This document shows, one piece after another, positions 18,231 through 57,991 of a stretch of DNA of 64,000 bases. Numbering within the stretch: the stretch's first letter is position 1; the number at the start of each line of letters is the position of its first letter. A program made the translations under genes and the position numbers. Under the pieces are notes generated by a model. The model had not been told where the DNA came from, made no database searches, and was given only the letters and a program-made list of their open reading frames with translations. This DNA comes from Thiomicrorhabdus sp. (lineage in GTDB: Bacteria > Pseudomonadota > Gammaproteobacteria > Thiomicrospirales > Thiomicrospiraceae), in assembly GCF_963662555.1 (NCBI RefSeq), contig NZ_OY759719.1, positions 826,985-890,984 of the forward strand, given 5' to 3'.

Positions 18231-18770
18231 ATGGCAAGATTACAAAAAATGTATAAAGAGCAGGTTGTTTCTAAATTAGTAGAACAATTTGGTTATCAGT
18301 CGCCAATGCAGGCACCTAAGTTGACTAAGATTACAATCAACATGGGTGTAGGTGAAGCGATTGCTGATAAAAAAGTTTTAGATAGTGCTGTTTCTGATAT
18401 GGAAGCAATTGCAGGTCAGAAAGCAATTAAAACTTTAGCTCGTAAATCAGTAGCAAGCTTTAAGGTCCGTGATGGATACCCTTTAGGTTGTAAAGTGACT
18501 TTACGTGGTGAAAAGATGTATGAGTTCCTTGATCGTTTAATCAATATTGCGTTACCTCGTGTACGTGACTTCCGTGGTGTAAACCCGAAAGCATTTGATG
18601 GTCGTGGAAACTATAACTTAGGCCTTAAAGAGCAAATTATTTTCCCTGAAATCGAGTTTGAAAAAGTTGATAAAATCCGCGGGATGGATATTAACTTCGC
18701 AACTACTGCACAAACTAACGATGAAGCGAAAGCTCTTTTAGAAGCCTTTAACTTTCCGTTTAAGAAATAG
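18231..18770 (+). CDS. rplE: 50S ribosomal protein L5
   Basis: L5 (uL5), which binds 5S rRNA and contacts P-site tRNA. 179 residues. Family signatures [13 protein letters not shown] and [16 protein letters not shown] are intact. It follows rplX by 14 bases. Confidence 0.98.
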
Positions 18771-40325: not shown

Positions 40326-41759
40326 CTAAGACTTTGACTCTTGCCACTTGCCGCCAAGTGCTTTGTATAAGTTGACCAAAGCTGTTGAATGGCTAAGCAT
40401 TAGATTGACGCGATTTATTTCAGCATTAAATAAGTTTCTTTGCGCATCTAATACCTCTAGATAACTTGAATAACCTGCATCAAAACGTTTTTGCGATAAA
40501 TCTAATATCTGTTTCAGTGCTGTCACTTGTCGTTGTTGTGCCGCAAGTTGTTGACTGCTGCCTTTAAGGTTAGTGAGTGCATCTAAAACTTCTTTAAAAG
40601 CCGTGCGGATTGTTTGTTGGTATTGAATGACTAACGCTTGTTTTTGTGCCTCAGTAATCTGTACTTGCGACCGGCGTTTACCATAATCAAATATAGGGGC
40701 GTTAATAGCGGCTGAGGTATTCCAGCTAACTGAATCATCAGTAAATAGTTTATTTAACGCTTCACTTGAAAAACCTAATAAACCACTCAAACTGATAGAT
40801 GGATACAACGCTGCTTTGGCGACACCAATATTTGCATTCGCGGCAATTAGGCGTTGCTCCATGGCGACAATATCAGGACGACGTTCTAATAAGTCAGAAG
40901 GCAACCCTTTAGGTATAGGCAAACTATTTAAAGAGTTTAAGTCTTTGGTCTCAAATGAGCTGGCAGTCATTTGAGCTAAGGCTTTTGGTGATTGACCTAC
41001 CAAAACTGATAGGGCATGAAGCTGTAAATCACGTAGTTGCTGTTGTTGTTGCAGGGCAATTTCAACCGAGGCTAATTCAGATTCAGCTTGATGAACATAT
41101 AACGGTGTAACACTGCCATATTCAAGTTGAGTTTGTCTGAGTTGCAAGGCTTCTTTACGAGATTCAACGGTATCTTGAGCAATGCGCACATCTTGATTTA
41201 AGGCCATTAAATTTAAATAACCTTGTGCTACTGCCGCAGTCACGCTTAATTTAACCGTTTTTTGGTCTGCTTCAGTGGCTTTTAAGTTGGCTTGTGCTTG
41301 TTGTTTAAGGGCATCATTTTTCCCCCACAGGTCAATTTCATAACTTAATAATGCACCCAGTGAAAACTGCCCATAAGTGGCTTCTGAACCAACAGGGTAA
41401 GCTTCTAGGCTATTTTTTGTTCGGCCAAGTTGACCTGTTGCACTTAACTCTGGATATTGTGCCGCTTTACTTTGATTTAGAACTGAACGTGCTTGTTGTA
41501 AATTGAGCTTTGCCAGAGCAATGTCACTATTGTGAGTCAGTGCTTCATTCATTAAGTTTGCTAAAGTGTTATCGCCAGAAAGCTGATTCCACCAGGCCTG
41601 TTCACTTAAGTTTAATTGGCTGTCAACTTTAGGTTGTAAGTTATTCCAGCTGGCCTGGGTAGGCAGTTCTACCTTAGGTTTTTCATAAGTAGGTATTTGG
41701 CTACAACCTGTCAGCATCAAGACAGGAATAAGAGCCGAAATGGTGATTAAATTTCTCAT
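40326..41759 (-). CDS. Outer membrane efflux lipoprotein (OprM/NodT type)
   Basis: Outer-membrane channel of an RND tripartite pump. 477 residues. A lipoprotein signal is seen: MRNLITISALIPVLMLTGC with the lipobox cysteine at residue 19. Two OEP repeats follow, with GYLNLMALNQDVRIAQDTVE in the first and AGYSSYLEVLDAQRNLFNAE in the second. The start codon overlaps the stop of the inner-membrane pump gene by one base (TAATG), showing coupling. A partial palindrome (41593) is read as QAWW. Confidence 0.95.
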   Translation of the reverse strand: MRNLITISALIPVLMLTGCSQIPTYEKPKVELPTQASWNNLQPKVDSQLNLSEQAWWNQLSGDNTLANLMNEALTHNSDIALAKLNLQQARSVLNQSKAAQYPELSATGQLGRTKNSLEAYPVGSEATYGQFSLGALLSYEIDLWGKNDALKQQAQANLKATEADQKTVKLSVTAAVAQGYLNLMALNQDVRIAQDTVESRKEALQLRQTQLEYGSVTPLYVHQAESELASVEIALQQQQQLRDLQLHALSVLVGQSPKALAQMTASSFETKDLNSLNSLPIPKGLPSDLLERRPDIVAMEQRLIAANANIGVAKAALYPSISLSGLLGFSSEALNKLFTDDSVSWNTSAAINAPIFDYGKRRSQVQITEAQKQALVIQYQQTIRTAFKEVLDALTNLKGSSQQLAAQQRQVTALKQILDLSQKRFDAGYSSYLEVLDAQRNLFNAEINRVNLMLSHSTALVNLYKALGGKWQESKS

Positions 41760-44700
41760 TATTTAGACTCCGTTTGTGATTGTTCAACAGAATTTTTGTC
41801 TGTTTTTTTGAAGGAGAAGCGTTCAGACATACCCGCAACCCAACGGAAGAACATTGGTACAAATAGCGGAGCAAATAGCGTTGCTGCAATCATTCCACCT
41901 ACCAGGCCTGTACCTACTGCTTGACGTGCCGCAGCACCCGCACCGGTACTTAACATAAGCGGTATTGCTGCAATAGTAAAGGCCAAAGAGGTCATTACAA
42001 TAGGTCTAAATCTTAATCTAGCCGCCGTTTCAGCGGCTTCAATTAATGACATGCCTTGTTTATGTTTTTGCATGGCAACCTCAACTATCAGTATGGCATT
42101 TTTGGCAGAGAGACCTATTAAGGTTAAGAGCCCTAACTGGAAGTAGATATCATTCTGTAATCCAGTTAACTTCACGGCAATCGTTGCTCCTAATACTGCA
42201 AATGGAACAGCAGTTAAAACCGCAAGCGGGATTGACCAGCGTTCATACTGTGCCGCTAAAATTAAGAAGACAAACAGTAAACCAAATAAGAAGGCCTGGT
42301 TACCTGAATTAGAAGACTGCTTTTCTTGATAGGCTTCACCGACCCAACCTAAGCTATAGCCATTTGGCATCACTTCATTAGCAACTTGTTCAAAAGCAGC
42401 TATCGCTTGTCCAGAGCTATAACCTGGAGCAGGTTCTCCCATTAGCTTAGCGGCAGGGAATAGGTTAAAACGATCTACAATATCGGCACCAGTTGTGCGT
42501 TTTACACTTACTAATGCACTTAATGGAACCATTTGGCCAGTTTGCGAGCGCACAAATACTTGAGCTAAATCTTCTGGTTTTTCACGGAAATTAGATTCCG
42601 ACTGCAAGTTAACTTTATAAGTACGACCATATAAGTTGAAGTCATTCACATAAAGTGTTCCAAACGTGGCTTGCATTGCGGCAAAGACATCGGCAACAGG
42701 TATTTGCATTGCTTGTGCTTTTTCGCGGTCTAAGGTGATTTCATATTGTGGCACTTTAGTTGAGAAAGTTGTGCGTACCGATTTTAATTCAGGGCGTGCA
42801 GACGCTTTTTTAATCAATTCATCGGTTACTTTACTTAAGGCTAAAGAGCCATCGCCGTTACGGTTTTGCAAATAAGCTTCAAAACCACCCGTCATACTCA
42901 TCCCCATAATAGTTGGCATACCAATTGGAATACTAAACGCATCTGGGATAGCCATTAACTGACCGAACAGTTGACCAACAATCGCTTTCAAACTTTGGTC
43001 TGGTGCAGTTCTCTCATCCCAAGGTTTTAAACTTACAAAAGAGACCGCCGCATTGGTTTTATTGGTAAATGTTTGTAAATCAAACCCAGCAAAACTGATT
43101 GAGTGAGCCACACCAGGGTGTTGAATTAACATTTCTGAAGTTTTATCACGAACCACTTCAGTACGAGACAATGAAGCCGCTGGAGGTAAGTAGTTAAGTA
43201 CAAACAGAGTCCCTTTATCTTCTTGCGGAAGTAAACCTTTTGGAACGCCACCTAATGTTTGATAGGTAATGGCTACCAGGCCTGCAAAAAGTAACACACT
43301 GATTAAGCTGTAACGCATAATTGTTCTTACACCAGCAGTAAACCCACTGGTAATACGATCAAAAAAGCGATTAAAGTATAAGAAAAAGCCAGTTTGCTTT
43401 TGATGTGCCGATTGTAAAATATTGGCACATAACGCGGGTGTTAAGGTCAAGGCTACAATACCTGAGATCGTGACTGAAATAACAATAGTTATGGCAAACT
43501 GTTTATACATTTGACCCGTTAACCCACTGATAAACGCAACAGGGATAAATACCGCAGCAAGTACTAAAACAATCGCCACAATAGGGCCTGTTATTTCACT
43601 CATCGCTTTAATCGTAGCCTCTCGTGGTGAGAGGTTTTCGGTTCGCATTATTCGTTCAACGTTTTCTACCACTATGATGGCATCATCCACCACAATACCT
43701 ATGGCGAGTATCATTCCAAATAATGTTAGCTGGTTGATTGAGAACCCAAGTAGATACATCCCTACAAATGTACCAATGATAGACACTGGAATAGCCAAAA
43801 CAGGAATCAGCGTTGCACGAACATTCTGTAAAAATAGATATACCACTAATACGACTAAAATTAGGGCTTCAAAAAGGGTATAGATAACCTTTTCAATAGA
43901 GATGTTTACAAATTCTGTGGTGTCATAAGGTACAGAGTAGTTGAGTCCTTTAGGGAAACTCTTAGATAATTCCGCTAACTTTTTATCAATTAATGCAGAG
44001 GTTTCTAAGGCATTTGCCCCTGGTTTTAAAAACACCCCAATTGGTACAGTTGGTTTACCATCATAGGTTGCATTAAAGTTGTAGTCTTGAGCACCTAATT
44101 CAACACGTGCAACATCTTTTAAACGTAAGGTGTCACCTTGCTTTTCAGCTTTTAAAATAATGTTTTTAAACTGTTCTGGTGTTGATAAACGACCTTCTGT
44201 AGTCACGGTATAAGAAAAAGCTTGTGGGTTAGCCATTGGTTCCTGGCCAAAACGCCCCGCAGCAAACTGAGAGTTTTGTGACTGAATCGCGTTATAGACA
44301 TCGCTAGGTGTAAGTTTGTATTGTGCCAATTTATTTGGGTCTAGCCATACTCGCATAGAGTAGTCTTTAGAACCAAATTGGCGAGCTTCACCCACTCCTG
44401 GAATACGAGCCAGTTCATCTAAGACGTTAATTAAGCCGTAGTTAGCAATAAATACCGTGCTTAAACTTGAATCGCCAGAGTAGAGCGAAATAACTTTTAA
44501 GATACTTGATGATTTTTTATTAACCTTTACACCTGCACGTTGTACTTCTGTTGGCAGCTTGCTTAATGCTCCTTGTACTTTGTTATTAACGTTAATATTT
44601 GCCTGATCAATATCTGTACCAATCTTAAAGGTAACCGTTAGGGTTAAAGTACCAGCAGAGGAGGTAACTGAGTTAATGTAAAGCATGTTATCCACGCCGT

Positions 44701-44911
44701 TAATAGCCTGCTCTAAAGGAGCCGCTACAGTTTGTGAAATGGTTTCAGCACTCGCTCCAGGGTAGGTAGCCGTTACCGCAACTTGCGGTGGCACTATTTC
44801 AGGGTATTCGGCAATGGGTAAACCCTTCATTGCAAGAAACCCAGCAATAATCACCACAAAAGACAGTACACTGGCTAAAACAGGGCGATTAATAAAAAAT
44901 TTAGAAAACAT
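41759..44911 (-). CDS. RND multidrug efflux transporter (AcrB/MexB type)
   Basis: Proton-driven inner-membrane pump of the HAE1 family. 1050 residues. Start MFSKFFINRPVLASVLSF is typical. The proton relay aspartates are in GIVVDDAIIVVENVER (segment 4), and the lysine is in LSAKNAILIVE (segment 10). The large periplasmic loops and the C-terminal PLFVPMFFRW are complete. Partial palindromes are found at 41903, 42292 and 43277, read as TGLVGG, NQAFLFG (antisense arm) and FAGLVAI. Second gene of the operon between adaptor and outer-membrane gene. Confidence 0.97.
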   Translation of the reverse strand: MFSKFFINRPVLASVLSFVVIIAGFLAMKGLPIAEYPEIVPPQVAVTATYPGASAETISQTVAAPLEQAINGVDNMLYINSVTSSAGTLTLTVTFKIGTDIDQANINVNNKVQGALSKLPTEVQRAGVKVNKKSSSILKVISLYSGDSSLSTVFIANYGLINVLDELARIPGVGEARQFGSKDYSMRVWLDPNKLAQYKLTPSDVYNAIQSQNSQFAAGRFGQEPMANPQAFSYTVTTEGRLSTPEQFKNIILKAEKQGDTLRLKDVARVELGAQDYNFNATYDGKPTVPIGVFLKPGANALETSALIDKKLAELSKSFPKGLNYSVPYDTTEFVNISIEKVIYTLFEALILVVLVVYLFLQNVRATLIPVLAIPVSIIGTFVGMYLLGFSINQLTLFGMILAIGIVVDDAIIVVENVERIMRTENLSPREATIKAMSEITGPIVAIVLVLAAVFIPVAFISGLTGQMYKQFAITIVISVTISGIVALTLTPALCANILQSAHQKQTGFFLYFNRFFDRITSGFTAGVRTIMRYSLISVLLFAGLVAITYQTLGGVPKGLLPQEDKGTLFVLNYLPPAASLSRTEVVRDKTSEMLIQHPGVAHSISFAGFDLQTFTNKTNAAVSFVSLKPWDERTAPDQSLKAIVGQLFGQLMAIPDAFSIPIGMPTIMGMSMTGGFEAYLQNRNGDGSLALSKVTDELIKKASARPELKSVRTTFSTKVPQYEITLDREKAQAMQIPVADVFAAMQATFGTLYVNDFNLYGRTYKVNLQSESNFREKPEDLAQVFVRSQTGQMVPLSALVSVKRTTGADIVDRFNLFPAAKLMGEPAPGYSSGQAIAAFEQVANEVMPNGYSLGWVGEAYQEKQSSNSGNQAFLFGLLFVFLILAAQYERWSIPLAVLTAVPFAVLGATIAVKLTGLQNDIYFQLGLLTLIGLSAKNAILIVEVAMQKHKQGMSLIEAAETAARLRFRPIVMTSLAFTIAAIPLMLSTGAGAAARQAVGTGLVGGMIAATLFAPLFVPMFFRWVAGMSERFSFKKTDKNSVEQSQTESK

Positions 44912-44972
44912 GGTTTTTCCTCAGATTAACGGTTTAAGTTAATTGGTAATGTAAATTATCTATAGCAAAGTA

Positions 44973-46157
44973 TTATTTTGCTGCATGCTCTTTATCTGTT
45001 TTACCAGCAGTGCTTGGTTTGTTTGGCAATATGGATACCGGTGTTTTAGGGCGTAACTTTATAAGGTTATTGGTTACTACTACATCACCGTTAGATAAGC
45101 CAGAATCTACTAACCAATTGTGGCCTTTTTCACCACCTAAATGCACAGGTACTAAATCTGCAATGCCATCGGTTACCTTATAAACAAAGGATTGTCCGCC
45201 CATTTGTACAACCGCTTTTTTAGGAACAATATATACATTTTGACGAATTGAGTCGGTCACTCTTAAACGCACAAATGATCCTGGCATTAATTGGTTTGTT
45301 TTATTATCAAATACGGCTCGTGCTTGAATACTACCTGTTGTTGTGTTGATGTTGCTGTCAACATAATCAATTTTTCCAGAGGCGATGACTTCACCTTTCG
45401 CATTGATGATTTGTGCGGTCCATTGGTTTTTAGGAAGAGTTTTTAGTTTGCCTGCCTGAATTTCTTTTTGTTGCTGAATGTAATCAGCATCAGGTATCGC
45501 AAAAATAACATTAATTAAATCTAATTGAGTAATATTGGTAAGCAGGGTGTTTTCAGAGTTTGAGCCAACTAAGCTACCAATATCTTGTTGTTTGATACCT
45601 GCAACCCCCGAGATTTCAGCACGAACTTCAGTGTAATCTAAGTCAATTTGGGTTTCATTTAATGCCGCTTCTTGACCTTCTAAATTAGCCTTTGCCAATT
45701 CAAGGTTAGATAAAGCCGTATCAACTTCTTGAGCACTTACCGCTTTATTTTTATATAAACCCTTAACACGGTCATACTCTCTCTGAGCTTGATTTAGGTT
45801 CGCTTTTGCAACATTAACTTGAGCTTTTGCTTTAAGTACTAATGCACGATATTTGCGATCATCAATTTTATAAAGTAATTGGCCTGCCTTTACTTCTTGG
45901 CCTTCAGTAAAGTATTTCTTTTGTAAAATTCCACTCACACGTGCATACACTTCAACTTGTTGTGCGGCTTGTGTGCGAGCGGAGTAATCAGCATAAACTG
46001 GAACATTTTCTAGGCTAACTGTAGTCGCGGCAACGGGTAAGGCTTGCGGTTTCTGGCCTGAATCAGCCGCAGAAACAAAAAGAGGCATAAAAAGCAATAC
46101 ACCAATAAAGCTTTGAGTTAAGCATTTTTTTGGATTTAACAGGGCTGAAAACATCAT
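44973..46157 (-). CDS. RND efflux periplasmic adaptor (AcrA/MexA type)
   Basis: Membrane fusion protein linking pump and outer-membrane channel. 394 residues. N-terminal hydrophobic signal of about 30 residues ending in SAA, with no lipobox cysteine, so it may be anchored differently from AcrA. The lipoyl halves are seen in VEVYARVSGILQKKYFTEGQEVKAGQLLYKID pieces, with an alpha-hairpin at about 110-160 and beta-barrel after 220. Two ATG codons are adjacent (46157, 46154). First gene of the efflux operon, 130 bases from the divergent regulator. Confidence 0.95.
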   Translation of the reverse strand: MMFSALLNPKKCLTQSFIGVLLFMPLFVSAADSGQKPQALPVAATTVSLENVPVYADYSARTQAAQQVEVYARVSGILQKKYFTEGQEVKAGQLLYKIDDRKYRALVLKAKAQVNVAKANLNQAQREYDRVKGLYKNKAVSAQEVDTALSNLELAKANLEGQEAALNETQIDLDYTEVRAEISGVAGIKQQDIGSLVGSNSENTLLTNITQLDLINVIFAIPDADYIQQQKEIQAGKLKTLPKNQWTAQIINAKGEVIASGKIDYVDSNINTTTGSIQARAVFDNKTNQLMPGSFVRLRVTDSIRQNVYIVPKKAVVQMGGQSFVYKVTDGIADLVPVHLGGEKGHNWLVDSGLSNGDVVVTNNLIKLRPKTPVSILPNKPSTAGKTDKEHAAK

Positions 46158-46287: not shown

Positions 46288-46932
46288 ATGAGAAAAGCGA
46301 TACAGCAATCAATTAGCGAGCCATGCAATAAAAGGGGCGTAGCCCGTCAACAAAAGTTTTTAGAAACTGCAGAAAAACTATTTTTGGCTTCTGGCTATGC
46401 CAACACAAGTGTTAATGAAGTTGTAAGATTATCTGGTGGTTCTTTAGGGACTTTGTATCGTTTATTTGGTAATAAAATTGGATTGTTCGAAGCTGTTTTT
46501 AGAAAACTCGCCATGACTTTTTTTAATGAGTTGGAAGAGGGAGTGGTTTGGAGTGATGATGTAGAGCGAAGTTTGATGGCGTTTGGTAGACACATACAAA
46601 GTGTGGTTTTGAAGCCCGATGGTATCGCTATTTATCGCCTAGTTTTAATGGAAAATAATGACGATCAGAAAGAAATACAAAGAATTTACTATAAATATGG
46701 CCCGCAGGTTGGTATAGAAATGTTGGCCTGTTATTTAAGAAAACAGGTTAGTCTTAAAAAGATTGCCCCCATAAATGAAGAGATTGCTGCAACACAATTT
46801 ATTGAAATGGTTAAGGGGCCGTTTGTTAATAGGTTACTTTTTGGTGAAGAAGTTTCAGAAGAAGACGTAGAGTTAGCGTTAATTCAAGGTGTGAAAATTT
46901 TTATAAATGGTTTAGCTATCAAGCCAGATTAA
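46288..46932 (+). CDS. TetR-family transcriptional regulator
   Basis: Likely repressor of the divergent RND operon. 214 residues. N-terminal helix-turn-helix at about 22-68: FLETAEKLFLASGYANTSV, VVRLSGGSLGTLYRLFGNK. The variable C-terminal domain (about 80-205) would bind the inducer. The ATG at 46288 follows about 75 bases of the shared gap that contains the operator. AcrR-like by context. Confidence 0.92.
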   Translation: MRKAIQQSISEPCNKRGVARQQKFLETAEKLFLASGYANTSVNEVVRLSGGSLGTLYRLFGNKIGLFEAVFRKLAMTFFNELEEGVVWSDDVERSLMAFGRHIQSVVLKPDGIAIYRLVLMENNDDQKEIQRIYYKYGPQVGIEMLACYLRKQVSLKKIAPINEEIAATQFIEMVKGPFVNRLLFGEEVSEEDVELALIQGVKIFINGLAIKPD

Positions 46933-48316: not shown

Positions 48317-48356
48317 TAAAACGGCTATTTTCTGTAAAGAAAACAGCCGTGTTTTT
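48317..48356 (-). terminator. Terminator after the OmpA-family gene
   Basis: 13-bp arms with one mismatch (48321-48333 and 48338-48350 region, ACGGCT/AGCCGT ends, 4-base loop). TTTTAC follows on the minus strand and GTTTTT on the plus strand. Confidence 0.8.
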
Positions 48357-48417: not shown

Positions 48418-49254
48418 CTATTTGATGATTTCCATCTCAACACGACGGTTTTCAGCACGGCCTTCTTTGGTTTTGTTTGAAGCTATTGGACTTTCTTCAC
48501 CCATACCAGTAGCGTGAATACGGTCTGCTTCAATGCCTTTTGACTCTAAGTAAGTTTTTACTGAGTTGGCACGTCTTTCAGAAAGTTTTTGGTTATAAGC
48601 GGCAGGCCCAGTAGAGTCTGTATGTCCAGTTACTTTAACTTCTGTTTTAGCATTATGAGATAGGTAGTCTGCATAGTCATTTAGTTTTGTTTTAGCGGCA
48701 TCTTTTAAAACAGCTTTATCAAAGTCAAAGAATCCACGGAACGCAACAGGTGCATCATCAACAATTTTCTTAACAAAAACCGGCTCAGGTTTAGGAACAA
48801 CCACTGGTGCAGGTTTAGCTACAACAGGAGGTTTTGGTTCAGCCCAACCTTCGCATTTAGCCATAGCGGTGTCTTTAGACCAATGAATGGTACGAACACA
48901 ATAACCATAACCATCACGAACGATACGGTTTTGTGAATCTACTACATATGCAATTTGACCAGAACCATCAATATCTTCTTTTACTGGTGGCAAAAGAGTT
49001 GGTGCTGGCTTGCTTTCTGCAGTAGTGCTTTCATCTGCTTCTTTAGTCGTGCTAGCTTGTTCTGTTTTTGGCTGTTCGCAACTTGCGATAGCGGTTTCTG
49101 GAGTCCATGCACTAGAACGAACGCAACTTCCATACGCATCTTTGGCGATTTCACCATAACTATCAGTTACGTAAGCATTAGAAGCGGCAATAGCATTTGA
49201 GCTTGCAGCAATAGAAATAATTGCAATCAGTGGAAGAAGTCTTGTTTTTATCAT
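48418..49254 (-). CDS. OmpA-family outer membrane protein with duplicated N-terminal module
   Basis: Probable envelope protein that tethers the outer membrane to peptidoglycan. 278 residues. Signal peptide of about 24 residues (cleavage after AIA). Two similar modules of about 38 residues follow (about 26-64 and 104-142), each with YV.DS, a CVR, a W and a second cysteine, so one disulphide per module is plausible. A Pro/Lys/Val linker (about 147-165) leads to the OmpA_C domain (FDFDKAVL, VTGHTDSTG, LSERRANSVK, GMGEESPIAS, AENRRVE). There is no eight-strand barrel, unlike OprF. AAAGGA precedes the ATG. It has its own ECF-type promoter. Confidence 0.92.
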   Translation of the reverse strand: MIKTRLLPLIAIISIAASSNAIAASNAYVTDSYGEIAKDAYGSCVRSSAWTPETAIASCEQPKTEQASTTKEADESTTAESKPAPTLLPPVKEDIDGSGQIAYVVDSQNRIVRDGYGYCVRTIHWSKDTAMAKCEGWAEPKPPVVAKPAPVVVPKPEPVFVKKIVDDAPVAFRGFFDFDKAVLKDAAKTKLNDYADYLSHNAKTEVKVTGHTDSTGPAAYNQKLSERRANSVKTYLESKGIEADRIHATGMGEESPIASNKTKEGRAENRRVEMEIIK

Positions 49255-49280: not shown

Positions 49281-49297
49281 AGAGTCAAAATGACTCT
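49281..49297 (-). promoter_or_regulatory. 5' stem-loop of the OmpA-family mRNA
   Basis: AGAGTCA and TGACTCT arms (7 bp) around AAA. On the minus strand it starts at, or within one or two bases of, the predicted transcription start. A 5'-terminal stem of this kind protects E. coli ompA mRNA from decay. Confidence 0.55.
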
Positions 49298-49303
49298 TAT
49301 AAT

Positions 49304-49336
49304 TTAAGACGCTGCGAGGCACTAAAAAGTCACATA
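49304..49336 (-). promoter_or_regulatory. ECF-type promoter of the OmpA-family gene
   Basis: On the minus strand TATGTGACTTT, 15 bases, GTCTTAA. The same two elements at the same spacing occur before the ECF sigma gene (51114-51146) and, as GTGACTTT-N15-GTCTGA, before corC. Predicted target of that sigma factor. Confidence 0.75.
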
Positions 49337-49432
49337 TTTAGCATTGTTTTATAAAAAACTTTTTTAATTATTTGTTGTTTATATTCATGTTAGCACCAAT
49401 AACCTGATGTTATCAAATAGATATTTTGGTTT

Positions 49433-49446
49433 TACCAGGCCTGGTA
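49433..49446. repeat. Full palindrome copy 5
   Basis: Exact TACCAGGCCTGGTA in the gap between the CmpX-like gene and the OmpA-family gene, about 100 bases upstream of the ECF-type promoter. Confidence 0.9.
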
Positions 49447-49503
49447 ATTTTAAAATATTGAGTGCCTTATTAAGCTTTTTAAAGTTATCTCAAATCGTAG
49501 ATT

Positions 49504-50331
49504 TTACTTGGTTTGTTTTTGGTAAATTTGGTCAAGTAATTGGTCATTTGGAATAACAACAATCCCTTCACTGGTTTTTATCTCAGTACTGCTACCATTA
49601 ATTTTAATGACCGTTCCGGTTTGTCCTTGTACAGTAATGGTGTCTTCTACATTAATGTGTTCTTTGAGGTAGTAAGACGATAAGATTTTTTTAAGTTGTG
49701 GGGCACTACCAATTCCAATAGCGAGGGCAATAGCTAAAGTAATACCAGTAAATGCAACTAATATAATCATCTGAATTAACTGAGTGTCAAAAGCCAACTG
49801 TTCTAATACGGTTAAGACAATAATGACGACCAATACGCCGTAAATAAAGCTAGAAATTAGCTGGGACGCAGCTGGTATAAAGTTTTTAAGGGCACTGTTT
49901 AAAGCATTACGAATAAAATGGGCTATAAATAAACCAGCAACCAAAATAATTAACGCAGCCATTACATTAGGAATGTACATTGCCACTTTATTTAATGTAT
50001 CAACAAATCCAGTTAATCCTGCATATTCGGCTGCAGTAATAAATGTAAATAGCACAATTAACCAAAAGAACAGGCCTGCTAAAAGGGTTGAGGGTGTTTG
50101 TTTAATCCCCACAGCTAAAAGCTTTTTATCTAATTGAATACGTTCAGCGGCACAATCAAATTTTAGTTTTTTAAATAATTTAAAGCTTAATTTTTGAACA
50201 AATACCGCCAATAAATAACCGATTAATAAAATACTAAATGCAATCAGTACATCGGGCAGAGCCATTAAAAAATTGTTGTAAGCATCTCCCCATGTAAACT
50301 GAATGCGGTCCTTTACATCATAAATATTCAT
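49504..50331 (-). CDS. cmpX: CmpX-like mechanosensitive-type membrane protein
   Basis: Inner-membrane protein of the small MscS-related group with conserved TM-helix repeats. 275 residues with about five to six membrane segments; GYLLAVFVQKLSFKLFKKL and VAGLFIAHFIRNALNSALK are the two repeats (about 38-56 and 131-150). A short soluble beta domain follows (VEDTITVQGQTGTVIKING near 228-246). In Pseudomonas the CmpX protein lies beside sigX and affects SigX activity. Here the start overlaps the upstream small gene by ATGA, so translation is coupled. Partial palindrome core at 50071 within the gene. Confidence 0.85.
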   Translation of the reverse strand: MNIYDVKDRIQFTWGDAYNNFLMALPDVLIAFSILLIGYLLAVFVQKLSFKLFKKLKFDCAAERIQLDKKLLAVGIKQTPSTLLAGLFFWLIVLFTFITAAEYAGLTGFVDTLNKVAMYIPNVMAALIILVAGLFIAHFIRNALNSALKNFIPAASQLISSFIYGVLVVIIVLTVLEQLAFDTQLIQMIILVAFTGITLAIALAIGIGSAPQLKKILSSYYLKEHINVEDTITVQGQTGTVIKINGSSTEIKTSEGIVVIPNDQLLDQIYQKQTK

Positions 50332-50540
50332 GAGTTTTCCTTTTGATGTGACAAAGTTTTAGCCATAGAAAATAGAGCTAATGGGAGTTTATATAAAAAT
50401 AGAATAAAGACTTCTTGAACCAGTGTTAGCCAATTCACGCCTTGTATGATCATAGAGGCTCTTTGAGCTGGGGTGTTTTTAGAGTTGTCTAATGACAAAA
50501 GCTTTTTGAATTTGTCTTCTTCTATTGAATCAGGTGTCAT
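50328..50540 (-). CDS. Small protein between sigX and cmpX
   Basis: Function unknown, 70 residues. A charged soluble N-terminus (about 1-30) is followed by one hydrophobic stretch (about 36-60, TLVQEVFILFLYKLPLALF), suggesting a membrane-associated helix. Both ends overlap their neighbours by ATGA (sigma stop, cmpX start), a coupling that supports it being real. It holds the place of CrfX in Pseudomonas. A very short anti-sigma factor or a CmpX partner are both possible; I see no zinc-finger anti-sigma motif. Confidence 0.7.
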   Translation of the reverse strand: MTPDSIEEDKFKKLLSLDNSKNTPAQRASMIIQGVNWLTLVQEVFILFLYKLPLALFSMAKTLSHQKENS

Positions 50541-51088
50541 AAACAGTTTTTCTCATAGAGTTGTTTAAAGCCTTCCATTGCTCTGTATAATCGCATTTTG
50601 GTGGCACTTAGTTTGAGATTAAGAATATCGGCAATCTCTTTAAGACTCAATTCAGTATTAAAACGCATACTAATAATGGCCTTTTCTACTTCGTTTTGTT
50701 GATCAATGCAATATTGAACACACTGCTCTTCATCATCGCACTCAAACTCGCTACTTAATTGCACATCATCAGCATAGTCATCAAGCGAATCGTACTGGGT
50801 CGTATAGCTCTTTTTTTGGGCTGCGGTATGACATAAGTTAATGGCAATTCGGTATAACCAGGTTGAGAATTGAGCATCGCCTCTAAAATTTTTTAATTGC
50901 TGGAATACTTTTAAAAAAACTTCTTGAGAAATCTCTTCTGCTTGCTCTTGATGACCAAAGTATCTTAAACAAATTGCGTACACTTTATTTTCATGGCGAA
51001 TAATTAATTCTTCAAACGCCACGGTAACATGGGGTAATTCAGCTTTTGCTTGTTCAACAATTTCAATATCTGTTAATTCTTTCAACAT
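50537..51088 (-). CDS. sigX: ECF sigma factor, SigX-like
   Basis: Sigma70-family ECF factor of 183 residues. The start LTDIEIVEQAKAELPHVTVAFEEL, region 2 (CLRYFGHQEQAEEISQEVFLKV, STWLYRIAINLC) and region 4 (MRFNTELSLKEIADIL, LSATKMRLYRAMEGF) all resemble Pseudomonas SigX as I remember it. It heads a coupled operon with the small protein and cmpX, and the OmpA-family gene follows. The classic anti-sigma gene with a zinc finger is missing. Own promoter with the shared motif suggests autoregulation. The ribosome-binding site is weak. Confidence 0.9.
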   Translation of the reverse strand: MLKELTDIEIVEQAKAELPHVTVAFEELIIRHENKVYAICLRYFGHQEQAEEISQEVFLKVFQQLKNFRGDAQFSTWLYRIAINLCHTAAQKKSYTTQYDSLDDYADDVQLSSEFECDDEEQCVQYCIDQQNEVEKAIISMRFNTELSLKEIADILNLKLSATKMRLYRAMEGFKQLYEKNCL

Positions 51089-51113
51089 GCTTGTTATGAT
51101 ACATACCTAATGA

Positions 51114-51146
51114 TTAAGACCATCTTATTTTCAACAAAGTCACATA
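51114..51146 (-). promoter_or_regulatory. ECF-type promoter of the sigX operon
   Basis: On the minus strand TATGTGACTTT, 15 bases, GTCTTAA, about 26 bases before the sigma start codon. Its -35 is the mirror of the corC -35: AAAGTCAC-N9-GTGACTTT forms a dyad at 51136-51160. Confidence 0.75.
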
Positions 51147-51152
51147 ATTTAA

Positions 51153-51181
51153 GTGACTTTTGTCATAGAGCCGATGTCTGA
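51153..51181 (+). promoter_or_regulatory. ECF-type promoter of corC
   Basis: GTGACTTT at 51153-51160, a 15-base spacer and GTCTGA at 51176-51181. Transcription should start near 51189, about 37 bases before the corC ATG. Back to back with the sigX promoter. Confidence 0.65.
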
Positions 51182-51225
51182 GTAGCATTACTTTGGCTAC
51201 ATTATAAAACGATAGGAAAATTACA

Positions 51226-52554
51226 ATGGAAAACTTTAGTACCAGTTTAATGGTAATTATTGTGCTTTTAGTGGCAAACGGATTTTTTGTTGCCGCCGAA
51301 TTTGCTTTGGTAAAAGTCCGCACTCTAAGAGTTGAAAACTTGGCTAAAGAAGGTGGATTATCTGCTCGCCTAACGTTAAGAATAAAACAAAACTTAGAAC
51401 CGTATTTAGCGGCGTGCCAGCTAGGTATAACCATGGCCTCGTTAGGCTTAGGTTGGGTGGGGGAGCCGGCTGTTTCTAAACTGCTTGAACCGCTATTTTA
51501 TTCAATGGGTATGCCAGACGAAGTATTGCACTTTACCTCTTTTTTAATTGGTTTCATTATTTTCTCTTCTTTGCATATTGTGATTGGTGAGCAAGTACCA
51601 AAAACCTATGCCATTCGTAAACCAGATCCTGTCTCTGTTTGGGTGGCGATTCCACTTCATGGGTTTTATTTATTGAGTTATCCATTAACTAAGGCTCTTA
51701 ACTGGTCAGCTTCAACTATCTTGCGCGCAATGGGGGTAAAAGAAGCTTCTCATGAGGAAATTTTTAGTGATGAAGAGTTGAGTGAGATGATTGATGCATC
51801 AAGCATTCACGGTAACTTAGATAATATTAAAGCGGATATGATTCAAAACATGTTTGCGTTTGATACTCGCATTGTAAGAGACATTATGGTGTCGCGCAGT
51901 CAAATTGATTGGTTAGATGTGAATGATGATTTACAAACTAATACTAAAAAGATAGTGGAATTAGGTCACTCTCGTTTTCCGTTAGTGCGAGGTCATTTGG
52001 ATGAAATTGTTGGGGTGTTGTTGGTTAAAGATTTACTGTTAAACAACTTAGATAATGAATCATCTGCACTTGTTGATATTGAATCGTTGGCTCGTAAAAG
52101 CTTAATTATGCCAGAGGTGATGGGGCTACAAAAAGCCTTTGATTTAATGCGAAATGAACGAAACCATATGGCTCTAGTTGTAGATGAATACGGTGCTCTA
52201 TCCGGCATTATTACCATGGAAGACTTAATTGAAGAAATTGTGGGTGAAATTGCCGATGAACTCGATAATGAAGAGATAGCAATTAAACAGTTAAAGTTTA
52301 CTGAAGGCTTTGAAGTGAACGGATTAATGGCCTTGCACGACTTTGAAAAACTCACCTCCACCAAACTAGATGTTGAACATAATGTGAGTACACTTTCAGG
52401 TTTGATTATGTCTGAACTGAATGAGATTCCAAAAGTGGGCGACGAGGTTATCTACAAGGGTTGGAAGTTTTTAGTTAAAAGCTTGGAAGGTAATCGGGCA
52501 GAAAAAATTTGGGCAATATTAGAGCCGTCTGATTCAGAATCAACATTAAGCTGA
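51226..52554 (+). CDS. CorC/HlyC-type CBS-domain membrane protein
   Basis: Member of the CNNM/CorC family, linked to magnesium and cobalt homeostasis. 442 residues. DUF21 membrane domain at about 1-200 (GFFVAAEFALVKVR, ACQLGITMASLGLGW), a CBS pair at about 215-340 (RDIMVSRSQIDWLDV, HMALVVDEYGALSGIITMED) and the CorC_HlyC domain at about 350-440. AGGAAA precedes the ATG. First gene of a rightward group followed by mgtE; the spacing is 112 bases. Confidence 0.92.
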   Translation: MENFSTSLMVIIVLLVANGFFVAAEFALVKVRTLRVENLAKEGGLSARLTLRIKQNLEPYLAACQLGITMASLGLGWVGEPAVSKLLEPLFYSMGMPDEVLHFTSFLIGFIIFSSLHIVIGEQVPKTYAIRKPDPVSVWVAIPLHGFYLLSYPLTKALNWSASTILRAMGVKEASHEEIFSDEELSEMIDASSIHGNLDNIKADMIQNMFAFDTRIVRDIMVSRSQIDWLDVNDDLQTNTKKIVELGHSRFPLVRGHLDEIVGVLLVKDLLLNNLDNESSALVDIESLARKSLIMPEVMGLQKAFDLMRNERNHMALVVDEYGALSGIITMEDLIEEIVGEIADELDNEEIAIKQLKFTEGFEVNGLMALHDFEKLTSTKLDVEHNVSTLSGLIMSELNEIPKVGDEVIYKGWKFLVKSLEGNRAEKIWAILEPSDSESTLS

Positions 52555-52614: not shown

Positions 52615-52674
52615 ATGCAAAAAAATCAAAAAGCCGCGGGTAATAAAAACGAGAAGGAGGCAAGAGATGTCTAA
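52615..52674 (+). CDS. Possible 19-residue leader peptide before mgtE
   Basis: ATG 52615 opens a 19-codon frame rich in lysine and asparagine (MQKNQKAAGNKNEKEARDV). Its TAA falls inside the second codon of mgtE, so it overlaps the mgtE start in another frame. The mgtE ribosome site lies within it. Such overlap could couple or block mgtE translation. It may equally be chance. Confidence 0.25.
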   Translation: MQKNQKAAGNKNEKEARDV

Positions 52675-54034
52675 TGATTTGTTTCCTGAAGAGATTATGA
52701 GCACTGAAGATAAACTGCTTCATATTCAAAATATGGTTGCCGATAACCGTGAGCAAGAAGTATGTGATTTATTTTTGAGGCTCACAGAGCATGAATTGTC
52801 GCATATTCTTGAGTCGTTTCCTCAAAATCAGCGTCAAAGTTTGTGGGTTTGTGTGCCAGATGAGATTCGCGGAGAAGTGCTTGCAGAGCTAAATGAAGAT
52901 GCTCGTTTGTCAATTTTGCAAGGCGTTGAAGCTAAAGAACTTAATGAAATTACTAAAGACTTAGATGCTCAAGATACCGCTGAAATTTTAGGGTCCTTAG
53001 ACCACGAGCTTGAAGCAGATGTCATGCAAAGCATGGACGAGACTCGTCGTGAAGAGGTGCAAAGTGTTTTAGATTATGATGATTATGCGGTGGGGCGTTA
53101 TATGCACACCGATACCGTTTCAATTCGTGAAAACGTCAAATTAGAAGTTGTTCAGCGTTTTTTAAGAATGAAAAACGTCATTCATAAAGGCACTCTAGAG
53201 CTAATGGTGGTAGATGAAAACAATCGATTATTAGGTACTTTGCATGTTGTGGAATTGATTCGCCATGATCCTGAAGCAATGGTTGCTGATGTTATGGAAC
53301 AACCTGAAACCGTATTGGATACTATGGATGCTATTGAAGCAGCCAAGTTTATACGCTCTAAGCATCATCATTTTGCACCTGTTGTTAATGATTGTGGTGT
53401 GTTAATGGGCCAATTAACCGCAGATGATGTGTTTGAATTAACCCTAGAAGAGAGTGAACAAACCGTTATGAATATGGCGGGTTTAGATGAAGAAGAGGAT
53501 CTGTTTGCTCCAATTAAAAAGAGTGTAAATGGCCGTACCCTTTGGTTGGGTATTAATTTAGCGACGGCATTTTTAGCGGCGGCGGTAATTGGCCAGTTTG
53601 AAGCGGTGATTGCTCAAGTAGTGGCTTTGGCGGTTTTAATGCCTGTTGTAGCGAGTATGGGCGGCATTGCTGGTAGCCAAACTTTAACATTGACTATTCG
53701 TGGTTTAGCCATGGGTAAAATTGGTGGCTCTAACCGCGTAGTTCTGTTTAATAAAGAATTTTGGATTGGTATTATAAATGGACTTATTTGGGCTGTAATT
53801 GTCGCTATAATTGCACAGCTATGGTTTGATGATATTATGATTAGTGTTGTGATTGGTTTGGCCATTCTTATTAATATGATTGCCGCTGCTGTTTCTGGTG
53901 TTGTAGTGCCGCTAATCTTAAAAAGATTTGGACAAGATCCGGCTCTATCTGGAGCGGTTATTTTAACCACTGTAACCGATGTGGTAGGGTTTTTATCCTT
54001 CCTTGGTTTAGCCACGTTATTAATTTTGAATTAA
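52667..54034 (+). CDS. mgtE: Magnesium transporter MgtE
   Basis: Mg2+ channel gated by its cytosolic domain. 455 residues from ATG 52667, which has a perfect AAGGAGG six bases upstream; a TTG at 52604 would add 21 poorly conserved residues. The N domain (about 20-130) is acidic and helical, a CBS pair follows (about 135-250, TLHVVELIRHDPEA, HHFAPVVNDCGVLMGQL), and the five-helix membrane domain (about 290-455) contains MPVVASMGGIAGSQTLT. The next gene starts 14 bases later. Confidence 0.95.
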   Translation: MSNDLFPEEIMSTEDKLLHIQNMVADNREQEVCDLFLRLTEHELSHILESFPQNQRQSLWVCVPDEIRGEVLAELNEDARLSILQGVEAKELNEITKDLDAQDTAEILGSLDHELEADVMQSMDETRREEVQSVLDYDDYAVGRYMHTDTVSIRENVKLEVVQRFLRMKNVIHKGTLELMVVDENNRLLGTLHVVELIRHDPEAMVADVMEQPETVLDTMDAIEAAKFIRSKHHHFAPVVNDCGVLMGQLTADDVFELTLEESEQTVMNMAGLDEEEDLFAPIKKSVNGRTLWLGINLATAFLAAAVIGQFEAVIAQVVALAVLMPVVASMGGIAGSQTLTLTIRGLAMGKIGGSNRVVLFNKEFWIGIINGLIWAVIVAIIAQLWFDDIMISVVIGLAILINMIAAAVSGVVVPLILKRFGQDPALSGAVILTTVTDVVGFLSFLGLATLLILN

Positions 54035-54048
54035 AAAAGGATTCATCT

Positions 54049-54477
54049 ATGCCGAACACTGTTGGTTGGTGCGAATGGGTAAGGTTACCTGAGCTAGGTA
54101 TTGAACGATTGGAATGCAAGGTTGACACCGGAGCAAAAAATTCCGCATTGCATGCTTTTGAAGTGGAACCATTTCAAAAAGATGGACAAGATTGGGTGCG
54201 TTTTTCAATTCATATTGATAACGATGACCTTTCTAAGGTAAAAGTTTGTGAAGCGGAGGTACAAGATATCAGAACGGTGACTGACTCTAGCGGTAACTCA
54301 GCGGAACGTTTCTTTATAGAAACGGCACTTGAGATTGGCGATTTTAGACTGCAAATTCCAGTTTCATTGACAAGCAGAGATACGATGGCATTTAAGATGT
54401 TGTTAGGTCGAACTGCTCTCAGAAAAGCTGGATTAATTGTTAATTCAGCAGAATCATATTTACAAGGAGTGAAATAG
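54049..54477 (+). CDS. Retropepsin-like ATP-dependent zinc protease family protein (RimB-like)
   Basis: Small protein of the PF05618 type, 142 residues. The aspartic-protease-like motif [13 protein letters not shown] near residue 25-37 is followed by RFSIHID and the second signature [15 protein letters not shown]. In Pseudomonas, RimB cleaves glutamate tails added to S6 by RimK. AAAGGA is upstream, with one base between this gene and rimK. Confidence 0.88.
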
Positions 54478-54478
54478 A

Positions 54479-55390
54479 ATGAGGATTGCCATTTTATCAA
54501 GAGGACCTAAGCTTTACTCAACACGTCGTTTAGTAGAAGCAGCCGAAGCTCGAGGCCATGAGGTGCGTGTTATTGATGCACTACGTTGTTATATGAATAT
54601 CAACTCGGTTAATCCTCAAATTCATTATAAGGGTGAAATTTTAGACAACTTTGATGCTGTGATTCCTAGAATTGGGGCATCGGTAACTTTCTACGGAACA
54701 GCAGTACTTCGCCAATTTGAGATGATGAATGTCTACCCATTGAACGAATCAGTTTCAATTAGTCGTTCTCGTGATAAGTTGAGAAGTTTACAACTGTTAT
54801 CACGCAAAGGAATTGGCTTGCCAGTAACGGGTTTTGCACACTCTCCTGATGATGTTGATGACCTATTAAAAACCGTTGGTGGTGCACCAGTAGTGATTAA
54901 ATTGCTTGAGGGAACTCAAGGGGTTGGTGTGGTTTTGGCAGACACTCACTCTGCAGCGTCTTCGGTTATTCAAGCATTCAATGGCCTTAAGGCAAATATA
55001 CTGGTTCAAGAGTTCATTAAAGAAGCGGGCGGTGCAGACATTCGCTGTTTTGTGGTGGGTGGTAAAGTCATCGCGGCTATGAAGCGCCAAGGTAAAGAAG
55101 GTGAGTTTCGCTCAAATCTTCATCAAGGTGGTTCTGCATCACTTATTAAAATTACCGCTGCTGAAAGAGCTACGGCAGTTAATGCTGCTAAAGCAATGGG
55201 TTTAAATGTATGTGGTGTTGATTTGCTACGTTCAAACCATGGTCCAGTCGTTATGGAAGTTAACTCATCACCAGGTTTGGAAGGGATTGAAGGTGCTACA
55301 GGCAAAGATATTGCAAGCATGATTATTCAGTTCATTGAAATAAATTCCAATAAAAAATTAAACCGAACTCAAACTGTAGGTAAGGGATAA
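54479..55390 (+). CDS. rimK: Ribosomal protein S6 glutamate ligase RimK
   Basis: ATP-grasp ligase that adds glutamate residues to the C-terminus of ribosomal protein S6. 303 residues. Start [18 protein letters not shown] is typical. ATP-binding and metal motifs include [36 protein letters not shown] and [14 protein letters not shown]. It sits between the RimB-like gene and the desuccinylase-like gene, with four bases to the latter. Confidence 0.93.
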
Positions 55391-55394
55391 ATTA

Positions 55395-56477
55395 GTGGTC
55401 GCTAAGGTTGTTAAAAATCAAGCAATTACTATTGGCGATGTCACTGTTAAACCAGGTGAAAAGAAAACGATTGAATTGCAAGTAGGTAAGTTATATACCC
55501 ACAGTGAATTGACTATGCCTGTTCAAGTTTGGTGTGGTAACCAGGCTGGACCAACTCTATTTATTAGTGCGGCTATTCATGGTGATGAATTAAATGGTGT
55601 AGAGATTATTCGTAGGCTGTTAAAGGTTAAAGCTTTACAGCGTTTAAAAGGCACATTGATTACCGTACCAATTGTTAATCTGCATGGCTTTATTAACCAT
55701 AGTCGTTATTTACCTGATCGTCGTGATTTAAACCGTAGTTTTCCAGGGTCAAAATCGGGTTCGATTGCGGGGCGTTTAGCACATATTTTTTTGAATGAAA
55801 TTGTGAGTAAAGCCACTCACGGTATCGATTTACATACGGGGGCGATTAACCGTACCAATTTACCACAAATTAGAGCCGATTTAGATAATGAAGAAGTGAA
55901 GATGATGGCTGAATCATTTGGTTCTCCGGTTATGCTTAATGCTAATTTAAGAGATGGTTCTTTGAGAGCGGCAGCGGTTAAAAAAGGTATTCCAATTCTG
56001 TTATACGAAGCAGGAGAAGCTCTTCGTTTTGATGAAGTCTCAATTCGTGCAGGCGTATCAGGTATTGTAAATGTCATGCGGCATTTAGGTATGTTACAAA
56101 AATCTCGTCGTATAAAAGAGCGAAAAATGAAACCGGTTATTGCACGTTCTAGTTTTTGGATTCGTGCTCCACAAAGTGGAATTTTTAGGTCTTTAATTCA
56201 AGATGGAGATCGTGTTGAAGCAAATAAAACCCTGATTGGGGTTGTCTCTGATCCTTTTGGGGAAGTAGAAGAAGAGGTCTATTCTCCAAACAGTGGAATT
56301 GTTATTGGGCAAATGTGTATGCCTTTGGTCAATGAAGGTGAAGCGTTGTTTCATATTGCTAAATTTGCTCGTAGTGATCTTGCAGAAGGCAAGGTTGAGG
56401 AGTTTCATGATGAGATGTACGATGACTCTAATTTGATGTATCCATCTGAAGATATTCCAAGGTATGGTCCAATATAA
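55395..56477 (+). CDS. Succinylglutamate desuccinylase/aspartoacylase-type metallopeptidase
   Basis: M14-like zinc hydrolase of the AstE/AspA group. 360 residues. GTG start with AAGGGA 7 bases upstream. Zinc ligands are in AAIHGDELNG (H and E) and DLHTGAINRTNLPQI (H), and the catalytic Glu is in LLYEAGEALRFDE. The C-terminal third resembles a lipoyl/barrel-like domain. Such genes commonly accompany rimK; removal of glutamate or a related acyl group is plausible but unproven. Last gene before a strong terminator. Confidence 0.88.
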   Translation: MVAKVVKNQAITIGDVTVKPGEKKTIELQVGKLYTHSELTMPVQVWCGNQAGPTLFISAAIHGDELNGVEIIRRLLKVKALQRLKGTLITVPIVNLHGFINHSRYLPDRRDLNRSFPGSKSGSIAGRLAHIFLNEIVSKATHGIDLHTGAINRTNLPQIRADLDNEEVKMMAESFGSPVMLNANLRDGSLRAAAVKKGIPILLYEAGEALRFDEVSIRAGVSGIVNVMRHLGMLQKSRRIKERKMKPVIARSSFWIRAPQSGIFRSLIQDGDRVEANKTLIGVVSDPFGEVEEEVYSPNSGIVIGQMCMPLVNEGEALFHIAKFARSDLAEGKVEEFHDEMYDDSNLMYPSEDIPRYGPI

Positions 56478-56522
56478 AGTTGGCTGTTTAGTCTAATTAT
56501 GTCTAGAACATATTTTGAATTG

Positions 56523-56549
56523 AAAAAAGGCCTAATAAGGCCTTTTTTT
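56523..56549. terminator. Terminator after the RimK cluster
   Basis: AAAAAAGGCCT and AGGCCTTTTTTT around AATA. Symmetric, so it can also stop the convergent patatin-like gene. Confidence 0.92.
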
Positions 56550-56611
56550 ATAACTTTTTTACTTTGAAGTAGAATGGTTTTATGTAAATTCAATGTCAGG
56601 TTATTGGTTAT

Positions 56612-57991
56612 TTAGTTATTAGATTTACCTTGGATGCTTTCGTCGTCATCCAGTTCTTGCAGCAACATTTGAAACTCTAAATTATTTTTTAGCAGTGAAC
56701 GACCTGCGTTAATTAATTTAGCCACATCAGGCTCAGTCAAACTTAGTCGTGTTGGAATCTGGTTAAATTCATTAATCTCTTTTTGAGTTTCTAATTCATT
56801 AAAGTTTATTTTGATAAAGTGCGGTTGAACCACGTGACCAGGTGAAGAGAGTTGATTTCCCCATTCAGTCAGAGAGTTTTTAAATAGTTGTAAAGTGGCG
56901 TCATTGTAGCGGTGAATTTGAATGTCACTCATCGCATCAATACTTTGTTGAATAGTAGGACTTTTATTTGTCATTCGAATGTTTTGAGAGCTTTGAGTAG
57001 AAGCATCGACTGAAATTACCGCAATATGATCAACACTTTTTTTATTCATTTTACGCAAAAAGGCTTTTGGTCCACCTGCAAACTGAATCGCTTCGTAAAT
57101 AGCCCGTAAGCCTAGATTGTCTGTTATGCCGCCATCAACAAGTTGTAAAAATGGGTAATTATTGCTGGCATATTCTTTTAGAGAATGAACCGCTTGTTGC
57201 AACTCAAGATTGTCCTTAATGTATTTTTCTGAAACAGAAAGTTTTTTTAAGGCGTTATTTTTACAGGGTTGAAAGTTTTGCAGCACGACAGGGTTAAAAA
57301 CTACGGGTACGGCAGATGATGCAGTAACCGCTTTGGCCACTGAAAAACTACTAATGTCTGAACAAATCAAATCAAAATAGTCTTGGGTAAACGAAAAACG
57401 AGCACCATTGGCTAAATCTGATGCATTAATTAATATCAGAGGGCGGCCAGGTTTTTTTAAGTCTGCAAAAGTGGCATCTTTAAAGATAGTCGTGTTGTAA
57501 AGCTGGATGGCCATTTGGGTACGGCCTGTATCACTAAACCAAGACAGAGGATTAAGTACTTCACTAATTAATTCATCTTCAATATCTTTTTTTAGCATAA
57601 CCTTTTCAAAATCTTTAAAGGTTTGATTGCCATTTAAACCATAGTAGGCAGCAATGAAGCTCCCCCCAGAAACCGCACTAATGATATCCACTTCATCCAA
57701 TAAACGAGTCTCTGTTTTTGAATGAGGAAGTTTTGTGTCTCTTAATTCTAATAAAACGCCATAAGCTAAAGCTGCTGCACGCGTACCACCACCAGAAAAC
57801 GTTAATACTAATGCAATGCGACCTTGTGGTTTAAGTTCTAAAACCGATTGAATGGAATAAACACTTTCTATTGGTTTATAGCGATTATTTTGTTTTTCAT
57901 TATTAATTACACCGTAAGAAGAACACCCCGTTATGAATGTGCTTAATGTTAAGAGTAAAAATATGATTTTTATTATCTGTAACTTAGGCAT
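56612..57991 (-). CDS. Patatin-like phospholipase lipoprotein
   Basis: Predicted lipid acyl hydrolase anchored in the envelope. 459 residues. Lipoprotein signal with lipobox ITGC (Cys23). The oxyanion segment FSGGGTRAAALAYG is near residue 68, the nucleophile elbow is AVSGGSFIAAYYG, where the first glycine of G-X-S-X-G is alanine, and the catalytic Asp is in LVDGGITDNLGL. The rest is of unknown role. Start MPKLQIIKII at 57991. Convergent with the RimK group. Confidence 0.88.
   Translation of the reverse strand: MPKLQIIKIIFLLLTLSTFITGCSSYGVINNEKQNNRYKPIESVYSIQSVLELKPQGRIALVLTFSGGGTRAAALAYGVLLELRDTKLPHSKTETRLLDEVDIISAVSGGSFIAAYYGLNGNQTFKDFEKVMLKKDIEDELISEVLNPLSWFSDTGRTQMAIQLYNTTIFKDATFADLKKPGRPLILINASDLANGARFSFTQDYFDLICSDISSFSVAKAVTASSAVPVVFNPVVLQNFQPCKNNALKKLSVSEKYIKDNLELQQAVHSLKEYASNNYPFLQLVDGGITDNLGLRAIYEAIQFAGGPKAFLRKMNKKSVDHIAVISVDASTQSSQNIRMTNKSPTIQQSIDAMSDIQIHRYNDATLQLFKNSLTEWGNQLSSPGHVVQPHFIKINFNELETQKEINEFNQIPTRLSLTEPDVAKLINAGRSLLKNNLEFQMLLQELDDDESIQGKSNN

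Follow-up and report, generated by a model that had tools for sequence, protein, structure and literature searches.

Three predicted promoters with a common spacing at a SigX-like ECF sigma factor locus of Thiomicrorhabdus with a magnesium-transport arm

Three copies of a bipartite motif, GTGACTTT-N15-GTCTKA, lie around an ECF sigma factor gene in the 64-kb window (the whole stretch of Thiomicrorhabdus DNA that was analysed). It is highly probable that they are promoters of the adjacent SigX-like sigma factor, predicted from sequence to drive its own operon, the neighbouring ompA-family gene, corC-mgtE and, probably, rimB-rimK-astE. Comparison at the sequence level established the sites, their fixed spacing, their conservation, their co-occurrence with the sigma gene and the kinship of that gene to Pseudomonas SigX. 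The initial annotation had reported three identical sites with a constant 15-base gap; both statements hold, the sites exceeding chance (the window has three, and 100 shuffles preserving dinucleotides yielded none) and the gap recurring in 19 of 20 upstream regions from seven genomes. The range it gave for the plus-strand corC site was exact, whereas both minus-strand ranges were 1–3 bases too wide. The second box and the start codon are separated by 26 bases at sigX, 44 at corC and 50 at ompA. The ompA leader also contains, between promoter and start codon, an inverted repeat with 7-base arms (49281-49297).

Table 1. Features of the sigX locus, in window coordinates.
Feature	Coordinates	Strand	Basis or remark
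Predicted sigX promoter, GTGACTTT-N15-GTCTTA	51115..51143	-	Pattern match; orthologous N15 site in 7/7 genomes
Predicted corC promoter, GTGACTTT-N15-GTCTGA	51153..51181	+	Pattern match; N15 site in 7/7 genomes
Predicted ompA-family gene promoter, GTGACTTT-N15-GTCTTA	49305..49333	-	Pattern match; N15 site in 5/5 genomes with ompA at that place
ECF sigma factor, SigX-like, 183 aa	50537..51088	-	Pfam sigma-70 regions 2 and 4
Small protein, 70 aa, in cfrX position	50328..50540	-	ORF; kept in 7/7 genomes
CmpX-like mechanosensitive channel protein	49504..50331	-	PF05552, PF00924
OmpA-family protein, C-terminal peptidoglycan-binding domain	48418..49254	-	PF00691
CorC/CNNM-family transporter protein	51226..52554	+	PF01595, PF00571, PF03471
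MgtE magnesium transporter	52667..54034	+	PF01769, PF03448; start inferred from orthologues
RimB-like zinc protease	54049-54477	+	PF05618 / PF08443 / PF24827 as a set for 54049..56477
RimK	54479-55390	+	Same set
AstE/AspA-like protein	55395-56477	+	Same set
Terminator-like hairpin, 13 pairs, 3' of corC unit	56521..56550	+	
Terminator-like hairpin, 13 pairs, 3' of ompA	48321..48350	-	

The sigma factor possesses sigma-70 regions 2 and 4 only, which identifies it as an ECF sigma factor. Its best NCBIfam match is the Pseudomonas-type SigX family PRK09640, at 140 bits and thus under the curated cut-off of 194, a Pseudomonas-type SigX control scoring 365 bits. In a tree of 47 ECF proteins, the group of the window's sigma factor, Pseudomonas SigX and ECF sigma factors linked to corC in other Gammaproteobacteria fell into one 20-row clade (support 100/98), within which the window's group is sister to the Pseudomonas and corC-linked proteins together, with long branches present. 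The name SigX, proposed in the initial annotation, is therefore borne out by best family match and tree. Beside the sigma gene, the CmpX-like protein shows 29% identity (E 1e-25) to cmpX of the Pseudomonas-type sigX locus. The 70-aa protein has no Pfam match; as a CfrX homologue it was rejected, since profile comparison (7 vs 28 sequences) gave a probability of 1.7% and detected no homology. The OmpA-family protein is best matched by OmpABordt (172 bits, cut-off 200) and has the C-terminal OmpA domain alone in common with OprF (42% over ~123 residues); an adjacent OprF porin was not found.

On the other side of the locus, mgtE follows corC in all seven genomes with sigX. The RimB-like, RimK and AstE/AspA-like genes probably form the rest of the corC unit, co-transcription being suggested by their close spacing, so that corC probably heads a longer magnesium-transport and rim unit, a point missed initially. 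Weaker hairpins are scattered inside the locus between the two strong terminator-like ones, and each side would comprise one or two transcription units. A patatin-like phospholipase gene (56612-57991, minus strand) faces the end of the corC unit. Elsewhere in the window, a TetR-like regulator gene (46288-46932, plus) adjoins and diverges from RND-type efflux pump genes (41759-46157, minus), all read from ORFs.

SigX orthologues were found in 6 of 32 genus genomes and in 7 of 62 genomes of the order. One SigX-bearing relative is deposited as Thiotrichales bacterium (L106), and it alone was close (73%) among 80 loci retained from a broader search of genome contigs, the others being distant. The order sigma gene, small gene, cmpX is kept in 7/7 genomes, as is corC-mgtE divergent from sigX, directly adjoining in most; an MscS-like gene is inserted between sigX and corC in G009, and CorA and MscS-like genes in G008. 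The ompA gene follows the cmpX-side operon in five of the seven. The window's type of corC occurs in exactly the same 6/32 genus genomes as sigX at a search cut-off of 1e-100, which leaves weaker corC paralogues uncounted; these genomes are related and hence do not represent six independent events.

Twenty upstream regions from the seven sigX genomes were scored with spacers of 12–19 bases permitted. N15 was the best spacer in 18, and in 19 once G009 was read to 380 bases, its sigX-side site having a 263-base leader and lying ahead of the MscS-like gene that precedes sigX. In those 19 regions a GTGACTTT-like box stands exactly 15 bases 5' of a GTC/CTC box (CTC in G040, G076 and at one G009 site); the exception is the CorA gene inserted in G008, with no N15 site upstream. 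Across the seven loci, real sites included, 22 of 1246 windows of 250 bases reached a score of at least 12.5 at N15, against 1/1246 in reversed sequence; because those same sites served to build the scoring, the weight falls on the control in reversed sequence and on the constancy of the spacing.

Enrichment followed the presence of sigX. The pattern GTGACTWW-N15-GTCWDA gave 25 matches vs 5 for the control in the six sigX-bearing genus genomes, and 8 vs 18 in the 26 without sigX. A second pattern gave 27 vs 3 in seven genomes with sigX and 4 vs 4 in ten without. The first was derived from G000 (the window's genome), G008, G009 and G015 and the second also from G040 and G076, so that the enrichment is partly circular; in the genomes unseen by the first pattern (G042 and G040) there were five matches vs four for the control, two of the five at ompA and corC of G042.

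The motif extends to Pseudomonadaceae, where 52 of 59 genomes carry SigX and the best-scoring 30 of those loci were read. Just 5' of cfrX, ~1220–1283 bases ahead of sigX and typically ~23–26 bases ahead of the ATG, GTGAC...GTC was present in 30/30, with N15 in 28, N14 in one and N16 in one, and with 30 different spacer sequences; the loci are related and so are not 30 independent trials. The second box is mostly GTCTAG or GTCAAG. Control windows matched in 17/2000 cases at any spacer of 13–17, and in 2/2000 at N15. Upstream of oprF the motif was found in 0/30 loci, and upstream of sigX in 1/30, there not at N18. As oprF is reported to be SigX-dependent, this absence, and the near absence 5' of sigX, mean that the code is not demonstrated at all SigX targets; in sequence terms, the clade promoter code is demonstrated at cfrX, not at oprF, in this family. 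According to the available text of PMC7641640, the P. aeruginosa cfrX promoter is SigX-dependent, the region retaining ~8% activity without SigX; 5' RACE placed a start at -208, and a further RNA-seq start with a 13-base leader was not validated. As that text gives these starts, the motif is placed to serve the 13-base-leader start, not the one at -208.

The two systems resemble each other in having sigma factors of one clade, a small gene and a gene for a CmpX-like channel next to that of the sigma factor, an adjacent OmpA-domain gene and GTGAC-N18-GTC 5' of cfrX as at the window's predicted promoters; a CorA-type gene beside the locus is common to G008 and the Pseudomonas type. In contrast to cmaX-cfrX-cmpX-sigX-oprF of P. 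aeruginosa, the window has the order sigX-small-cmpX-ompA, divergent from corC-mgtE, an OmpA protein unlike OprF at the N-terminus and a small protein that is not detectably CfrX. The regulons also differ: three promoters in the window's genome, as against the 347 genes that the available part of PMC4362757 gives for the primary SigX regulon of P. aeruginosa.

Of the corC-linked relatives in the SigX clade (L231-L233), L231 and L232 have N15 sites 5' of corC, an ompA-like gene, rimK and corA. They are thus like the window in sigma clade and sites, and L233 is like it in clade, showing no motif site at its locus, where the region upstream of corC lies beyond the contig. All three are unlike the window in lacking the motif upstream of the sigma gene itself, and in an intervening gene, which we take to be of LysR type. 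The L231 rimK site (GTGACTTT-N15-GTCTGA at L231:6155, G323) is downstream of the SigX-clade gene.

RpoE-type promoters have the form GGAACTT...TCTGA, and the window's sites, GTGACTT-N15-GTC, resemble them in an AACTT-like first box, a TC-containing second box and similar spacing, with GTGACTT replacing GGAACTT. Since the window's genome also holds two further ECF genes, located at about 374.0 kb and about 990.4 kb, the boxes might belong to another ECF sigma factor such as an RpoE type, SigX being their neighbour by chance. We regard this as very unlikely: RpoE (TIGR02939) scored above cut-off in 0/32 genus genomes, genomes lacking sigX also contain ECF genes of other types yet show no enrichment of the motif, and in Pseudomonadaceae, too, the motif goes with the SigX clade.

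The predicted promoters of sigX and corC are arranged back to back, only nine bases separating the two 8-mers, which is a new observation, missed by the initial annotation. Within the window the resulting inverted pair, AAAGTCAC-N9-GTGACTTT, forms a perfect palindrome, and a symmetrical pair of first boxes occurs in six of the seven genomes, features that would suit an operator for a dimeric regulator in place of two -35 boxes. Such an operator is highly improbable, given that the distance within the pair is not fixed (9, 8, 7, 8, 7 and 7 bases, and 2 in a distant relative, between corC and corA), that each half of the palindrome has its own GTC/CTC box at N15 and that ompA is served by a single site; varying distance, second boxes and single ompA site argue for divergent promoters. 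Two holoenzymes bound so close together would probably hinder each other, as we conjecture.

That the motif is conserved without function in this strain, or that a housekeeping promoter dominates in practice, is exceedingly improbable: sigma-70-like matches do overlap the promoter regions (51160-51188 and 49288-49259), but such matches are fewer than in shuffles (19 observed, mean 26.9), and from genome to genome both boxes persist although spacers and leaders differ.

A whole-genome search, proposed in the initial annotation, covered 2.70 Mb in a single contig (xseA, rplE and trpA being named by reading ORFs). Outside the trio, the remaining three exact or one-mismatch sites were all intragenic: the four exact sites are the trio and one within xseA, and the two one-mismatch sites lie within rplE (window 18495-18523) and trpA. 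The detectable regulon therefore consists of three promoters. The looser GTGACT-N17-GTCTNA found six sites vs none for the reversed pattern, the three other than the trio all within ORFs. With up to two mismatches there was no genome-wide excess (49 sites vs 50 in the control); a wider regulon in the window's genome was rejected on this count and on the intragenic position of the remaining sites, and since the count equals the control, a looser regulon would be invisible to the pattern alone.

In the sigX-bearing genomes, 11 matches of GTGACTWW-N15-GTCWDA lay off the locus. Four are shortly 5' of a gene, encoding an MscS-like protein and a 233-aa protein in G008, a homologue of the latter in G040, and a P-type cation ATPase in G009; the other seven are within ORFs or overlap an ORF end or N-terminal extension. 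The 233–241 aa protein (L194:3838-4536 in G008, L188 in G040, L200 in G076) has no Pfam match; a search of 15 genomes located it in three, each of which carries sigX, and gave no homologue in G000. Its gene is preceded by a SigX-type site in G008 and in G040, with no convincing one in G076. SigX-type sites were also seen 5' of a glucosaminidase gene and an MscS-type channel gene (L039:11095-11123 and L193:4107-4135, G008).

The initial proposal that SigX drives its own operon, ompA and corC is supported, as a prediction, by N15 in 19/20 regions of seven genomes, by enrichment confined to sigX genomes and by the same code 5' of the SigX-dependent cfrX. Likely transcription targets of SigX are its own operon together with ompA and corC-mgtE, and we infer that it binds the sites and that its effect is activating. 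Once freed or made, SigX would transcribe sigX along with the two genes behind it, for the small CfrX-position protein and the CmpX-like channel protein. It would also transcribe the OmpA-family gene next to them and, in the opposite direction, corC-mgtE and probably rimB-rimK-astE. The result would be a positive feedback loop linked to magnesium/cation transport, to membrane-tension channels and to the attachment of the outer membrane to peptidoglycan. The signal would be membrane tension or osmotic/cation stress. By analogy, we conjecture that the small protein and/or the CmpX-like channel protein might hold SigX back until membrane tension frees it. This idea follows the P. aeruginosa model in the available part of PMC8999054, which assigns SigX to ECF102, proposes a CfrX/CmpX/OprF mechanosensing complex and treats SigX as the sole studied ECF sigma factor for which control by such a complex has been proposed. 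Overexpression of cmpX in P. aeruginosa left sigX and cfrX expression unchanged (available text of PMC10965496), a result that does not clearly favour or contradict the model.

The locus represents a SigX system variant whose regulon is compact and includes a magnesium-transport arm. According to the available part of PMC7641640, a paper of 2020, SigX promoters could not be searched for, as their consensus lacked a precise definition. The code may be partly known already, as a SigX logo is printed in Fig. 2 of PMC4362757; in the available text of PMC4074388, GTGAC appears solely in a primer. The chances are about even that the SigX (ECF102-like) clade had GTGAC-N18-GTC as its ancestral promoter code, which would explain the unvalidated start near cfrX in Pseudomonas, and that the ancestral duty was a compact envelope-tension circuit of mechanosensitive channels, an OmpA-type anchor and the magnesium transporters corC-mgtE/corA. 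In that circuit the promoter of the sigma gene would stand back to back with that of the transporter genes, possibly letting two holoenzymes compete. Because the SigX-type regulon described here, outside Pseudomonas, is small and sharply delimited, and because the code recurs at cfrX in 30/30 Pseudomonadaceae loci, both promoter recognition and the core regulon can be tested directly.
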